Below, piece by piece: positions 23,201-58,904 of a stretch of 64,000 nt of DNA. A program made the position numbers and the translations under genes. Source of the DNA: Chloroflexota bacterium (GTDB taxonomy: Bacteria; Chloroflexota; Anaerolineae; UBA2200); contig JAUWJD010000013.1 in assembly GCA_030607875.1 (NCBI GenBank), positions 1-64,000 on the forward strand, in the 5' to 3' direction. How positions within the stretch are numbered: the first letter of the stretch is position 1; every line of letters begins with the position of its first letter. The notes beneath the pieces were generated by a model. That model did no database searches, was not told the DNA's origin, and worked only from the letters and a program-made list of their open reading frames with translations.

Positions 23201-24633
23201 GTGGGCGTCGGCAGTGCGGTGTCGCGCAGGCGCACCGTCGGCCCGCTCAGCGTACCGCTTGCGGGGAGAGACACTGCTGGATTATAGCCATCCTCGAAGC
23301 GAAAGGCGTAGGTGTGGGTGCCAACGGGTAACAAGGTGCTGTAGCGGTAAAGTGTGCTGCCGCCTCCCGCGCCTGGCACCGCGCTCATGCTGTAGGTGTG
23401 GCTGTCGATGTACAGGTTAGCCGCGATCGGCGGATCGGCACCCTCATAGAGCACCTCGTAGGTGAACAGCGTGGCCGTATCGCCCTCCTCGGGAAGGGCG
23501 CGACCGTTGCTCAAACTGTGTGGTGGCAGCGCGCTCACCTGCACGTCGGTGTAATAGTGCATCAAGATTTCGGCATAGCTGTGCCCGCTTTCGGCCAGCA
23601 CACGTGCCCCCTGCTGGCACATGCCTACCCCATGTCCGTAGAAGAGGTTGAAGCCACATGGGCAGGAGACGCTGCGGCAATAGGGCAGGGCGGCCTGCCA
23701 GACGTCCTCCGAGTTGTGGGTGTGCCCGTCGCAGTGGGCGTAGAAGAAAGCGCGGATGATATTGCCGGCGTGGGTTGCGGCCACGTTGTGCGTTCTGTCT
23801 ACCGCCTGGTCGGTGGTTTGGTAGTGTATCGGGCTCCACACCTGGCAATGCTCGGTAGTGCAGACATCCGCCCCGACGTCTGCGTGACGGTGCGAGGTTG
23901 CGGCATAACAGCGCGCAGCGACGGCCTGGGCCTTCAACGCCTCCATTGGCCAGTAGGGAGGCATCTCACTGGGCAGCACTCCTTTGATATACTCATCAAA
24001 GCCCATGACTACAACGATGCCGTCCAGCATCAAGACGCGAATGGTGGCGGGGAGCTGGGTCAGGCCAGTTGCGGCAAAGCCTTCGGCCCGCACCGCCTCC
24101 AGTTCTTCAGCCGACAGTTGAGGGCCCGCAGTCTGGCGAAAGATCTCGTCGAGTGTTGCACGCTGTTCAGGGGAGGGCGAGACCAGGACCATGGCAAAGT
24201 CAACCGTGGTAGCCCTGTCCTGGCGCGCTCTCTGGCGGGTCATGGACATGGCGATGTATCCCTCTGCCTGGACGCGCACTTCATACGTGCCCGGAGCGAC
24301 GAGGAGGCTGTAGCGTCCCTCCGCGTCAGTGGTCGTCTGGGCGTCGCCAGCAGTGACCCATGCACCGGCAATGGGCTGCTGGCTGAGCACATCGGTTACT
24401 CGTCCGTCGAGGGTGCCTGTTTGTGCGCGGACCAATACTTTGCCAGCAGGCCACAGCAGCCCTCCCACCAGCATCAAGAGCATGGCCAACGCGAGCATGT
24501 GCCGCAGCGAATGGCCGTTTATCACGCCATTCGCAGTGTCAACCTTGGTCGTTATGGCCTTGGAGCGACCAAAGTCGTCACTGCGCATGCAGGATCTCGA
24601 CGTATTGATCGCTTTCTGCAAGATCTCGTTCAT
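20233..24633 (-). CDS. giant exported SpoIID / PGRP-amidase / dockerin protein
   Basis: The product is 1466 residues. A membrane anchor or signal lies at about 45-70, then a carboxypeptidase-regulatory-like beta-domain (74-155). A SpoIID-like domain (about 195-365) carries YIKGVLPSEMP, LKAQAVAARCYA and GHGVGMCQQGA. A long beta-rich part follows, then an N-acetylmuramoyl-L-alanine amidase/PGRP domain (about 645-800; SRAAWGADES, FVIHHTATPN, GYNYLIDAQGRIYEGR, GHRDGAQTTCPG). Beyond are Ig-like and carbohydrate-binding-like domains, a Thr/Pro/Ala-rich linker (about 1215-1330), a second regulatory-like beta-domain, and a dockerin (1404-1466; GDANADCTVNLLDLI and ADINADGQVDVRDLILVSSN). It should act on peptidoglycan outside the membrane. 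The ATG overlaps the sirtuin stop (ATGA). A dispersed palindrome (24565-24589) lies inside the N-terminal coding part. Confidence 0.82.
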   Translation of the reverse strand: MNEILQKAINTSRSCMRSDDFGRSKAITTKVDTANGVINGHSLRHMLALAMLLMLVGGLLWPAGKVLVRAQTGTLDGRVTDVLSQQPIAGAWVTAGDAQTTTDAEGRYSLLVAPGTYEVRVQAEGYIAMSMTRQRARQDRATTVDFAMVLVSPSPEQRATLDEIFRQTAGPQLSAEELEAVRAEGFAATGLTQLPATIRVLMLDGIVVVMGFDEYIKGVLPSEMPPYWPMEALKAQAVAARCYAATSHRHADVGADVCTTEHCQVWSPIHYQTTDQAVDRTHNVAATHAGNIIRAFFYAHCDGHTHNSEDVWQAALPYCRSVSCPCGFNLFYGHGVGMCQQGARVLAESGHSYAEILMHYYTDVQVSALPPHSLSNGRALPEEGDTATLFTYEVLYEGADPPIAANLYIDSHTYSMSAVPGAGGGSTLYRYSTLLPVGTHTYAFRFEDGYNPAVSLPASGTLSGPTVRLRDTALPTPTPQPPPQSTQGWQWTQSTLADFSQGVGYNTVLTSEGDGEVRLAADHTYGVYTSTIKLAPIEFVAIGSHWLSKVPPGTDLSIALRSSTDGSTWFDWQVVPPMDAEREETLLDYGELIYLRGPYLQYRLTLASSQTGLSPMLASLTLIAIDSRIGPTADQALAISISPPEGGPVIISRAAWGADESLWNWPPEYRPIREFVIHHTATPNGGLDPAATVRAIYYYHGVTRGWGDIGYNYLIDAQGRIYEGRRGGEGVVGGHAKQYAWGSIGLSVIGNYDEVELPTAAEESLVEMVAWKGNLHFVDPTGHGFFIDQDLPKVMGHRDGAQTTCPGRYAYARLPAIRQAALARMAQIPPNVRIDAPIAGEEVGGMVDCSVTASPRATRVDFYVDGTWKAADTSAPFSWKWNTNSVGSGPHELRVQARTAVDLRAEHTVTVNVDHAQPAGSLSGPTFHNARQVTLETWADDAAQMLFSNGWHWEGEDMPHQTGGQVSDADAWNGQAWMGPAGSDPAGWWYGPYFKELPTGRSYRVFFRLKTADDGTAARVAMIDVSDNFGRNTHVSKDLTGQDFARRLAYQEPYLDFSYYRHDSYGLEFRTFYTAQSDLYLDRVYLFSSPRAYAQNAQWTLSGGDGPKEVAVRYIDAAGNVSPVYSTSVVLDTEPPQWLGWDGRHAQVRDELSGLQVGSAEFATSGDGGESWGTWQTATLTATEGTTSIVLVSAPEVEGSHLRFRIADRAANMGESTAYALPTPIPTATATASPKATQTLITTATPSPTLSPTASPTAIPTATQTETLTQTPTPAATPSSTPSPAASATATATASPTATPTATQTRTPTASPTPIPSPTPTEEPRLGWIRGRVNLQGRSLQHGATVRIADVALTTTSTDGSYLLLDLLGGVYAVTVRMPGYLEAHREEVVVSAGAETMLPDLTLRAGDANADCTVNLLDLIIVASSLGNVGRNPYADINADGQVDVRDLILVSSNLGRSCPGEWGG
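24565..24589. repeat. GCGACCAAAGTCG repeat inside a coding region
   Basis: GCGACCAAAGTCGTCACTGC and GCATG match 17157-17181 except for about four positions. The copy lies within the first 25 codons of the SpoIID gene. Confidence 0.5.
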
Positions 24634-25403
24634 GTGCTTCCTTTGAGCTCCCTCACTCTAGCGGCGATCTGCGGGAGGATGACCGCTACATCCTCATGGA
24701 TGACGACAGCAGCCTGTGTATCCATCACCGTGGGCTGGTAGTTGACCAGGATCACTTCTGCTCCGTGCTGCCTGGCACGCATCGGCAGCCCCGCGGCCGG
24801 GTAGACTTCCAGCGAAGAGCCAGTGACCAACATGACGTCGCAACGTTCTGTCTCCTGCTCGGCTTCCAGCAGCACGTCCATGGGCAGCAGCTCACCGAAG
24901 AGCACCACGTCGGGCTTGAGCAGGCCGCTGCAGGCCGGGCAATGCGGGACCTCGCCGCTGGCCACGAAGGCTGGCCACAACTCGTGACTGGGCACCTTGT
25001 GGCCGCAAGCTGTGCAGGTGGCGCTGCGCACGCTGCCGTGCAGCTCCAATACGCGCTGGGAGCCTGCTTTGTGATGCAGTTCGTCGATGTTCTGGGTAAT
25101 AACGGCTTTGAGCACGCCGATCCGCTCCAGGTCCGCCAGCGCGGTGTGTGCAGGGTTGGGCCGTGCCTCCATCATCTGTTTGGCCAGGGGGCGGATCCAA
25201 TCGTAGAAAGCCTGCGGGTTGTGCTGGAAACCATAGATGGAAGCCACCACCATCGGATCCACTTGTTCCCACAGCCCAGAGCCTGGGCTGCGAAAGTCAG
25301 GCACGCCGGAAGGCGTGCTGTGACCAGCGCCCGTAAGCGCCACCGCATGCTGGCTGGCGGCCAGGATTTCGGCGGCCCGTTGTATCTCGTCCTCAAAAGG
25401 CAT
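24630..25403 (-). CDS. cobB: sirtuin-type NAD-dependent protein deacylase
   Basis: The product is 257 residues. It removes acyl groups from lysines using NAD. GAGHSTPSGVPDFRSP (26-41) binds NAD, TQNIDELHHKAG and the catalytic His in LELHGS follow, and a zinc site is formed by CTACGH and HCPACSG. KPDVVLFGELLP and GSSLEVYPAAGLP complete the family pattern. It overlaps the downstream SpoIID gene by 4 nt, so they are translated together. Upstream, in the same direction, lie the GxxExxY element and endonuclease V, so the original operon was probably nfi-sirtuin-SpoIID. Confidence 0.88.
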   Translation of the reverse strand: MPFEDEIQRAAEILAASQHAVALTGAGHSTPSGVPDFRSPGSGLWEQVDPMVVASIYGFQHNPQAFYDWIRPLAKQMMEARPNPAHTALADLERIGVLKAVITQNIDELHHKAGSQRVLELHGSVRSATCTACGHKVPSHELWPAFVASGEVPHCPACSGLLKPDVVLFGELLPMDVLLEAEQETERCDVMLVTGSSLEVYPAAGLPMRARQHGAEVILVNYQPTVMDTQAAVVIHEDVAVILPQIAARVRELKGST

Positions 25404-25425: not shown

Positions 25426-25981
25426 CAACACAAAGACACAAAGACACGAAGACACAAAGAGCGAAATATGAACAAAACGGATGAATGGCTTTCTGTCATT
25501 ATGTTCTGGCTGCTGACTGCCTTGCTTCCCCTCCCTCTGAAGATCAGCGAATGACCCGTTTGATGCCATTCTTGATGAGAGGCACGTTGAAGTTGATCAG
25601 GTAGCCAAGCCGTTTGCCGGTCAGTTTCAGTTGGGTTAGGATCTGTGCCAGGAACACGGGATTGTACCTCTCGGCCGCTTTCAGTTCACAGATAACCGAG
25701 TCCTCGATAAGCACGTCCAAACGCAGACCTTCGTCAAACTTGAGTCCATCGTAAATAATGGGCACCTTTACCTGTCGCTGGAAAGCCAGGCCGCGTTTCC
25801 CAAGCTCGTGGCAGAAGCACACTTCATAGACATTCTCTAAAAGTGATGGGCCAAGGGCGCTGTGTACTGCATAAGCGGCCTTGACCACTGCCTTGCCAAT
25901 GCTTTCCTCTTTATCTGACAGCGGCGCAAACTCCATCCGAATCTCCCCTTTGTGTCCTTGTGTCTTCGTGTCTTGGTGTTG
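25426..25981 (-). mobile_element. putative small mobile element with 34-bp inverted repeats
   Basis: The left end (25426-25459; CAACACAAAGACACAAAGAC then ACGAAGACACAAAG) and the right end (25948-25981, inverted) match at 30 of 34 positions. The ends are themselves periodic (ACACAAAG / ACACGAAG every 9 bp). The only gene inside is the GxxExxY nuclease-like protein. The right end stops 2 bp before the nfi stop codon and the left end 22 bp before the sirtuin start, so the unit sits neatly between two genes of one direction. No clear target duplication was seen. Mobility is inferred. Confidence 0.55.
25544..25936 (-). CDS. GxxExxY protein (PD-(D/E)XK nuclease-like)
   Basis: The product is 130 residues, the full family length. 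The signature region reads GPSLLENVYE, with Ser31 where the first Gly of GxxExxY is expected; E34 and Y37 are kept. RLDVLIEDSVICELKAAE holds D74 and E84-x-K86, the PD-(D/E)XK-type metal site. LTQLKLTGKRLGYLINFN is the usual C-terminal strand-helix pair. The biological role of the family is unknown; the fold predicts a nuclease or a recombination function. It is enclosed by 34-bp inverted repeats and interrupts a likely nfi-sirtuin operon. Confidence 0.8.
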   Translation of the reverse strand: MEFAPLSDKEESIGKAVVKAAYAVHSALGPSLLENVYEVCFCHELGKRGLAFQRQVKVPIIYDGLKFDEGLRLDVLIEDSVICELKAAERYNPVFLAQILTQLKLTGKRLGYLINFNVPLIKNGIKRVIR

Positions 25982-25983
25982 AA

Positions 25984-26679
25984 TCAGAAGAGCGTCTCTT
26001 GCTCGGCGCGGATGCCAGGCAGCTTGGCCCCGCCAGCAACCTTGTGCGCCCAGCGGATCGGCTCGGGCAGGCGGTAGCCCATGCCGCAGCGCAGAATATA
26101 GTCCACGGCGGTCGCCAGGTCAACCTTGTGCCCTATTGAAATAAAGACGGGTTTGACGTTCTCCCTCGTACGCAACACTGCGCCGATGATTTCGCCCTGG
26201 TGGTACAGCTCGCTGTAGTCGCCCACCTTGGGGCCGACTTGGACATAGTCGCCGACCAGCCTCGACTTGGCACATCCGATGCTGGGCCTGTCCATGATCA
26301 CGCCAATGTGGGTGGCGATGCCCATGCGGCGTGGGTGGGCCAGCCCCTGTCCGTCAAAGATGAACAGGTCGGGCTCGATTTGCAGGCTCTCGAGGGCTGC
26401 CAAGATGGCTGGCCCTTCGCGGAAGGTCAGCAGGCCAGGGATGTAGGGGACAGTGAGCGGCAGATCGGCCTCTGCAGCCTCCAATGGCTGCAAATCTGGG
26501 AAGCCTAGCACTACAATGGCAGCGTGGGCACGCTGGCCGGCGGTGCTGACATCCACACCGGCTACCGTGCGCACTGGGCCTAACTCGTTGCGGGTCACCA
26601 CCTTGCTGTGCAGCTCCCTCTGCACCTGGATGGCAGCCTTTGGGGCCAAGTCCCACTTGTGCGGCGCTTGCACTTGCAT
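25984..26679 (-). CDS. nfi: endonuclease V (deoxyinosine 3' endonuclease)
   Basis: The product is 231 residues. It nicks DNA near deoxyinosine to start repair of deaminated adenine. D43 in VAGVDVS, the PYIPGLLTFREGP wedge (79-90), D109 in FIFDGQGLAHPRRMG and K138 in CAKSRLVG are all present, so the enzyme should be active. SIGHKVDLATAVDYIL closes the fold. The ATG at 26679 was chosen because sequence upstream of it lies in the promoter. Promoter at 26711-26739. The stop codon is only 2 bp from the right end of the GxxExxY element. Confidence 0.9.
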   Translation of the reverse strand: MQVQAPHKWDLAPKAAIQVQRELHSKVVTRNELGPVRTVAGVDVSTAGQRAHAAIVVLGFPDLQPLEAAEADLPLTVPYIPGLLTFREGPAILAALESLQIEPDLFIFDGQGLAHPRRMGIATHIGVIMDRPSIGCAKSRLVGDYVQVGPKVGDYSELYHQGEIIGAVLRTRENVKPVFISIGHKVDLATAVDYILRCGMGYRLPEPIRWAHKVAGGAKLPGIRAEQETLF

Positions 26680-26740: not shown

Positions 26741-26813
26741 GTGCGAGACACGGATACACGGATATACGGATCGCCATACTGGTGCGAAATCCTGTCCGGT
26801 CCGTGCCTCGCAC
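26741..26813. repeat. palindromic 73-bp element between divergent promoters
   Basis: GTGCGAGACACGGA (26741-26754) and TCCGTGCCTCGCAC (26800-26813) pair at 13 of 14 positions. The inside starts with a 9-bp periodic block (ACACGGATACACGGATATAC). The -35 boxes of nfi and of PadR 2 lie directly outside its two ends. Confidence 0.6.
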
Positions 26814-32448: not shown

Positions 32449-32474
32449 TGCAACAGAGACAGCAAACACGAAGG

Positions 32475-32514
32475 TACGAAGAACTGAAAAGGGTTTTCTT
32501 GGTGTTTCTCAGAT
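32475..32514. repeat. short palindrome of the ACACGAAG type
   Basis: AAACACGAAG pairs with CTTGGTGTTT around a smaller hairpin GAAAA-GGG-TTTTC. It looks like a minimal relative of the ends of the GxxExxY element and lies between convergent genes, where it could terminate transcripts. Confidence 0.4.
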
Positions 32515-40561: not shown

Positions 40562-40778
40562 CCTCTTCCTCGTGTGCCTCTGTGATTTGAGCGCGAGAGC
40601 ACCAAGGCGAGCATAGCACATGTTGCAGGGTCTGACAAAGCGCAGCACAGCTAGCGACGTTGTGCTGCTCGTGAGCGCAAACTTCAGTGGCTTGCAGCGT
40701 GCTGAGCCAAATCCTACACAGATCAGGATCATCTTTGTGTCTTTGTGGTTTGGCCCTACCCCTGCGCTCGGAGACATG

Positions 40779-58451: not shown

Positions 58452-58904
58452 AACACGAAGACACGAAGACACCGAAGGTCAAGGGAACTTGGTGTCGTGA
58501 CTACCTACATCTCACCGCTGAGCACACAGCCTCGCCTGAGAGATGGCGACAGCCGAAGGGCTCGTCGTAGATCTTGCGAAGGCAAGGCCGGAGGCGATGG
58601 CTACGACGGGGGACGCTTCGCGAAGGTCGCGGAGAGGATCAAGGAAAGGCCTTCTGTGCGCACTTCCTTGCCTTGGCGGCGAGACAAGGTGCGCTCTCTG
58701 CGGTGAACAGAAGAGCCGCCACTATGCTCGCTTTCCGAGATGTGGGTAGTCACCGGAACTTGTCATTTGGCCTGTCTTCGTGCGGCAGTGACACCGCAGC
58801 CTGGCAGCCAGACGAGAGCCAGCCCGGGCGTGGCTGCAGTGGTTGCTGTCATTCCTTGATCTCAGCGTTATTCAGAGCTTGGTGTTTTCGAGTCTTTGTG
58901 TTAG
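58452..58904. repeat. gene-less element with 26-bp inverted ends
   Basis: AACACGAAGACACGAAGACA then CCGAAG (58452-58477) and the complement of 58878-58904 match at about 21 of 26 positions. The ends resemble those of the GxxExxY element (25426-25981). Inside is an inverted copy of the CAGGCGAGG repeat (58497-58545) and no gene. It could be a deletion derivative that moves with help from a full element. Confidence 0.5.

Follow-up and report, generated by a model that had tools for sequence, protein, structure and literature searches.

A small GxxExxY nuclease gene between inverted arrays of tandem units: a putative mobile cassette in Chloroflexota

Introduction

Homing endonucleases of the PD-(D/E)XK class are known, I-Ssp6803I being one example. 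A described association of small enzymes with short repeats, and the reference system here, is that of the RAYT transposases and their REP/REPIN repeats (PMC3116915, PMC2817692). The intervening sequences of 23S rRNA are about 0.4–0.5 kb long, carry an S23/four-helix-bundle open reading frame and have terminal inverted repeats (PMC4990558). Intergenic direct repeats of the 7-nt unit TAACTGA occur in Beggiatoaceae, and regulatory roles are suggested for them (PMC4679880).

GxxExxY proteins are widespread in bacteria. In the open-access literature the name GxxExxY came up in just two papers, one of which touches on it in passing, and searches on GxxExxY, PF13366 and flanked nuclease elements gave no account of array ends; no function is assigned to the family. 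For the short repeat sequences, the same literature yielded primer lists only. Here we analyse a GxxExxY gene in a 64-kb stretch of Chloroflexota DNA (the window). We read it as very probably part of a mobile cassette of roughly 0.5 kb, in which a small PD-(D/E)XK nuclease gene lies between two inverted arrays of putative binding units.

Materials and Methods

GxxExxY genes and their flanks were gathered from 301 genomes of the phylum and from 80 named records, mostly Bacteroidota. Arms were scored by aligning the left flank to the reverse complement of the right flank, which was possible for 181 usable genes; 210 positions within the same loci served as controls. The genomes are mostly draft metagenome assemblies, and many of the comparisons are phylogenetically non-independent.

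Results

The nfi–sirtuin junction

The gene lies between nfi and a sirtuin gene, with the following features.

24630–25403, minus strand: sirtuin gene, host flank, co-directional
25426–25981, no strand: whole putative cassette, from outer array end to outer array end (arm match and empty sites in relatives)
25428–25460, plus strand: sirtuin-side array, read inward as ACACAAAG ACACAAAG ACACGAAG ACACAAAG, 8-bp period
25544–25936, minus strand: GxxExxY gene, 130 aa, PD-(D/E)XK nuclease fold (TIGR04256, PF13366, alignment, AlphaFold2 model)
25948–25979, minus strand: nfi-side array, inverted, ACACCAAG ACACGAAG ACACAAGG ACACAAAG
25984–26679, minus strand: nfi (endonuclease V), host flank, co-directional, start set at ATG

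An earlier note on this DNA had described 34-bp ends matching in inverted orientation at 30 of 34 positions, which holds for 25426–25459 against 25948–25981. All but one of the four mismatches concern base 4 of the CACNAAG unit, a position that is free across the family, and the arms retain 86% inverted identity once lengthened to 37 bp. When the 500-bp flanks are aligned in inverted orientation, the score is 49, against a maximum of 31 in 2000 dinucleotide shuffles, and the exact pattern ACACNAAGACACNAAG has six matches in the window's genome and none for the reversed control pattern. The 9-bp period given earlier has to be corrected: the unit of this cassette is ACACNAAG, with a period of 8 bp. 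A different 8-bp array, ACACGGAT in three copies, lies upstream of nfi (window 26748–26771).

As previously noted, the GxxExxY gene is the only gene inside; being the sole open reading frame between the arms, it leaves no classical IS/DDE transposase there. The nfi, GxxExxY and sirtuin genes share one reading direction, and the site lies between protein genes, not within rRNA. The distances to the neighbouring genes, 2 bp on the nfi side and 22 bp on the sirtuin side, stand as first described, but the two coding ends differ in kind: that of nfi is the 3′ end, at the stop codon, and that of the sirtuin gene is the 5′ end, at the start codon.

The encoded protein is a clear member of its family, scoring 129 bits against TIGR04256 (cut-off 35) and 126.6 bits against PDDEXK_3, PF13366 (cut-off 22). 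These are its only profile matches, and a HUH/Y1 tyrosine transposase domain is absent. Residues G29, E34, Y37, D74, E84, K86 and Q98 are invariant in an alignment of 65 sequences; since the active-site residues are among the conserved positions, catalysis is probably retained. An AlphaFold2 model (pLDDT 95.6) has weak matches to solved folds, the nearest being lambda exonuclease and the Cas4-like SSO0001. A sequence search of solved structures returned nothing, and a PADLOC search gave no match to a known defence family.

Arms around other GxxExxY genes

GxxExxY genes occur in 59 of the 301 sampled genomes of the phylum, and also in Bacteroidota and others. In this sample, skewed to close relatives of the window protein and to best-scoring genes, 65% of the 181 genes reach an inverted score of at least 30, against 2.4% of the 210 controls; a score of 34 is reached by 54% and 0%, respectively, and the medians are 34 and 21. 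Such enrichment of flanking repeats is what the earlier note had proposed to look for. On the strength of the control positions we reject a terminator or a chance repeat. Uma2, another PD-(D/E)XK family, has arms at score 28 in 4% of cases, ruling out that arms are a general property of PD-(D/E)XK genes. About 35% of the 181 genes lack arms at the threshold, including loci of Planktothrix, Celaenobacter and Litoribacter. Arms are present in cultured isolates as well (Tangfeifania, Belliella).

The arms are tandem arrays of three to four units each, inverted on either side of the gene, with a best lag of 8 in 65, of 9 in 33 and of 10 in 15 of 120 left arms. Under a simple ORF rule, both neighbours are co-directional with the GxxExxY gene in 84 of 116 cases and both opposed in 3; the median distance of the outer arm is 12 bp from the preceding stop and 33 bp from the following start. 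Two readings offer themselves: polar insertion, or survival limited to copies that are read through from an operon. Direct words of at least 4 bp at the borders number 15 against about 9 expected, which amounts to no clear target-site duplication. The outer side of the 5′ arm has T-runs and that of the 3′ arm has A-runs, and an Rfam search of the elements gave no match. Neither phage copies nor close plasmid copies were found; distant relatives are present on seven plasmids. Some GxxExxY domains are located in open frames of 530–570 residues (G028:C20, G224:C34, G072:C12, G255:C10, G046:C5:426906), possibly fusions or a distinct subfamily.

Unit code and its pairing with the nuclease

The unit has the consensus CRC-N-RA-K, 7 bp followed by a spacer of 1–3 bp, in versions that include CACNAAG, CACNAAA, CACNGAG, CACNGAT, CACNAAT, CGCNAAG, CGCNGAT (as CGCAGAT or CGCGGAT) and CGCNAAT. 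The versions at both ends of an element match but differ from one element to another, so the single repeat first proposed as a general end was too narrow, ACACNAAG being one among many unit types. A score of 28 is reached by 70% of own-arm pairs against 4.2% after right flanks are swapped within a genome, and these swaps rule out a genome-wide repeat effect.

The more alike two proteins are, the more alike are their units; this holds inside single genomes, from one genome to another and across both sets. Unit type is correlated with the nuclease (Mantel r 0.47, a value matched by 0 of 5000 within-genome permutations). On a maximum-likelihood tree of 117 proteins, 31 unit-class changes are required against 64 with shuffled labels; in Chloroflexota, shuffles within genomes give a minimum of 34 changes against 27 observed (0 of 300 as low). 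As unit type tracks the nuclease lineage, the enzyme may well recognise its repeat; however, gene and arms are linked, so joint inheritance alone would account for part of the covariation. A search for residues co-varying with unit bases yielded no more than seven independent pairs.

Substitutions between elements whose proteins are 70–93% identical are distributed unevenly over the unit: C1, C3, R5 and A6 differ in 0.5–2.5%, positions 2 and 7 in 12–14% and the central N (position 4) in 59%, with spacers at 27% and interstitial DNA at 30%, rates that come from non-independent pairs with units found by pattern in one member of each. Since the core bases are kept and the central base is free, this resembles the footprint of a protein-binding site rather than a stem. 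At the N position, the arms of one element agree in register at 0.58 and out of register at 0.60; with no in-register matching and near-saturation there, pairing itself does not appear to be the conserved trait. On the agreement at N and the footprint we reject an RNA stem as that trait; the pattern is accounted for if a protein recognises each unit, but not if a stem is conserved. Recognition by the nuclease of its own arms, through their unit type, is in our view probable.

Empty, occupied and exchanged sites

Genes for nfi and sirtuin are neighbours across many Chloroflexota (L202–L228), forming a conserved pair. The empty sites anticipated by the earlier note do exist: many relatives, members of the same family and order among them, have nfi and the sirtuin gene side by side and no GxxExxY gene at the junction. 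The two closest relatives (G304, G301) have a gap of about 65 bp with one array-like stretch (ACCACGAAGG...), possibly a remnant.

Elsewhere, three loci in three genomes (L051, L056, L089) are about 80–87% identical from GCCAC to GTGGC, that is, from arm to arm, and are flanked outside the arms by unrelated sequence. One genome carries two copies that are 89% identical (L049 and L061). At one junction, with flanks 95–98% identical, L018 holds a CACAGAG cassette and L150 a CGCGGAT cassette with nucleases 43% identical; at another, L155, L163, L166 and L172 (CACGAAG) correspond to L183 (CGCTGAT), with nucleases 37–44% identical. The L018/L150 junction adjoins a DISARM-type methylase gene (weak DrmMI match). 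Within one Chloroflexota family (L305–L334), this DISARM-like junction holds cassettes of three unit classes; it is empty (0–30 bp) in L317, L320, L325, L330 and L333, and in other relatives contains a gene-less hairpin (L309) or repeats (L311, L323). It resembles a carousel, a minisatellite being among its occupants. Overall, some empty junctions retain an array or hairpin and others do not.

Comparison of these sites shows that the gene and both arrays come, go and are exchanged together, as a single evolutionary unit, at junctions between co-directional genes. A mobile cassette is thus very probable, in agreement with the compact mobile element postulated earlier: arms are enriched around other GxxExxY genes, nfi–sirtuin sites without the gene exist, and homology runs from arm to arm in three genomes. 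Because arms are enriched elsewhere and relatives have a gene-free site, neither of the two outcomes that the earlier note had named as contradicting it was obtained.

Gene-less arrays and hairpins

Cassette-type units are also found in the window apart from the nfi–sirtuin junction.

32465–32507, no strand: short, weak gene-less hairpin of cassette units (CACGAAGGTACGAAG ... CTTGGTG)
40731–40750, minus strand: single two-unit array CACAAAGACACAAAG
58453–58901, no strand: second inverted pair of CACNAAG-type units, about 440 bp apart, a decayed or gene-less relative

A TIGR04256 search at 58453–58901 gave no match, and no GxxExxY gene lies inside. A dispersed repeat (...GAAGATCTTG..GAAGGCAAGGCC..GGCGACGGCT.CGACGGGGGAC) is common to window 58540–58620 and L005 1676–1770 of the same genome, adjoining array elements in both.

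Dispersed gene-less hairpins, consisting of an array, a short loop and an inverted array (L292, L294, L295, L298, L300–L302), sit in intergenic space, often directly after stop codons. Of 301 genomes, 27 contain strict triple arrays of CACNGAG, and 20 of these 27 are GxxExxY-positive (p=1e-10). More than two such arrays are present in 8 of the 11 genomes that carry the matching nuclease class, in 3 of 31 with other classes and in 2 of 242 gene-free genomes. The association is weaker for CACNAAG arrays (5 of 8 genomes, p=0.009), and a strict three-unit dispersed CACNAAG array is present in one of 13 class-matched Chloroflexota genomes and absent from the other 12. Some genomes (G015, G295, G177) have arrays with no detected GxxExxY gene. 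Cassette-type units also form long minisatellites (CTTTGCGTT, CACCAAGT, CACCGAGT) in L311 and in contigs C187 and C40 of G295. A selenocysteine tRNA of the window's genome (Rfam RF01852; L291 506–601) has a dispersed array hairpin about 150 bp away.

A four-helix-bundle family with the same layout

Genes of the family TIGR02436, which we take to be the S23 family, likewise have inverted tandem arrays on both sides; a score of 28 is reached at 50% of 30 loci (L231–L260, e.g., L249, L250, L233 and, in the window's genome, L240). Their arms have a 7-bp period in 15 of 16 cases and CRCNRAK units in 0 of 16, with units such as TCAGTGA, TTAGCGG and GGGTAGC. TIGR02436 co-occurs with GxxExxY in 23 of 29 GxxExxY genomes (p=1e-7). 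Judged by its arms, it may constitute a parallel cassette system with a code of its own. TIGR02436 has no nuclease motifs, so a nuclease is dispensable for the shared layout, and some other factor may underlie movement.

Discussion

Taken as a whole, the following reading is in our view more likely than not. There are strong grounds for inferring that the nuclease is specific for its own unit type and recognises it in duplex DNA. It would then cut at the arrays, and the cassette, as well as the gene-less hairpins in trans, would move when the cut product is repaired or integrated. Such logic would be akin to that of RAYT transposases and REPIN hairpins, although the chemistry is unrelated. We put the part in which nuclease catalysis drives movement at even odds, mainly because of the layout shared with TIGR02436. 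More tentatively, and with slightly less than an even chance, these cassettes may represent a new class of autonomous bacterial mobile elements: unaided, a 130-residue PD-(D/E)XK nuclease would recognise the end units, move itself and spread hairpins, while its specificity diversifies to give several code pairs per genome; the four-helix-bundle elements would be a parallel 7-bp class.

A homing-type process is unlikely but has a real share of the probability: arrays or hairpins would be resident, the nuclease would cut them, and the gene would be copied in from a gene-bearing template by break repair through array homology, so that movement would be gene conversion between arrays and not insertion into naive DNA. 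It would fit the junction where one relative has a hairpin and others have cassettes, the replacement of cassettes of different classes within nearly identical flanks, the single array-like stretch left in G304 and G301, and the lack of clear target-site duplications. However, other relatives are array-free at the same junctions (0–30 bp), which implies that arrays also come in with the cassette; array homology would be missing for cassettes of another unit class, and self-cutting of the arms would require control. Distinctly unlikely, in our estimate, is a passive-cargo reading, in which a trans-acting or host factor moves non-autonomous elements that end in the arrays, and GxxExxY rides along as a possibly beneficial or addictive passenger. 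The four-helix-bundle family, with its identical layout and its co-occurrence with GxxExxY, speaks for passive cargo, as do arrays in some genomes with no GxxExxY match, but array type tracks the nuclease clade inside multi-element genomes, and the repeat codes of the two gene families are disjoint (8–10 bp against 7 bp).

The inverted arms, the prevalence of co-directional neighbours and the position just past a stop codon would also be expected if the arms paired in the transcript and were processed, e.g., by RNase III, making insertion into operons harmless as with 23S rRNA intervening sequences. We regard this as improbable given the absence of in-register matching at the near-saturated free base and the lack of Rfam matches, and the orientation bias is equally expected if only expressed copies persist. 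That ordinary regulatory or structural repeats, such as terminators or REP-like sites, stand beside GxxExxY genes by chance is highly improbable: although the hairpins are intergenic and often directly follow stop codons, controls and Uma2 genes lack arms, arms match their own partner only, homology begins and ends at the arms, and the order of T-run and A-run is wrong for an intrinsic terminator.

If the mobile cassette is accepted, GxxExxY proteins become tied to it, and it accounts for a set of abundant intergenic repeats. Several pairs of nuclease and target unit per genome would make up a natural collection of small, putatively sequence-specific nucleases. A further question then arises, namely why the cassette layout is shared by a four-helix-bundle family.

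Among known systems, the Beggiatoaceae TAACTGA repeats are short, tandem and intergenic, and are similar to the sibling unit TCAGTTA; unlike for the four-helix-bundle cassettes, the available part of that report (PMC4679880) mentions no flanked gene or four-helix-bundle protein. Like 23S rRNA intervening sequences, the GxxExxY cassette has a length of about 0.4–0.5 kb, one small open reading frame and terminal inverted repeats, but it sits between protein genes, ends in tandem arrays and encodes a nuclease. It shares the nuclease fold class with PD-(D/E)XK homing endonucleases, and selfish spread by site-specific cutting is plausible for it too; unlike them, it has no intron or intein, and its presumed recognition units remain unsplit inside both ends. 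As in the RAYT/REPIN system, a small nuclease-type gene lies between inverted copies of a repeat, gene-less inverted doublets are dispersed as intergenic hairpins, and the repeat class matches the enzyme class (clearly for CACNGAG, weakly for CACNAAG). However, the enzyme is a PD-(D/E)XK protein and not a HUH/Y1 tyrosine enzyme, the ends consist of three to four degenerate tandem units with a free central base, the units vary among elements of one genome, and cassettes swap at a junction. With the HUH enzyme absent, the cassette would work like a RAYT/REPIN pair without thereby being a member of that system.
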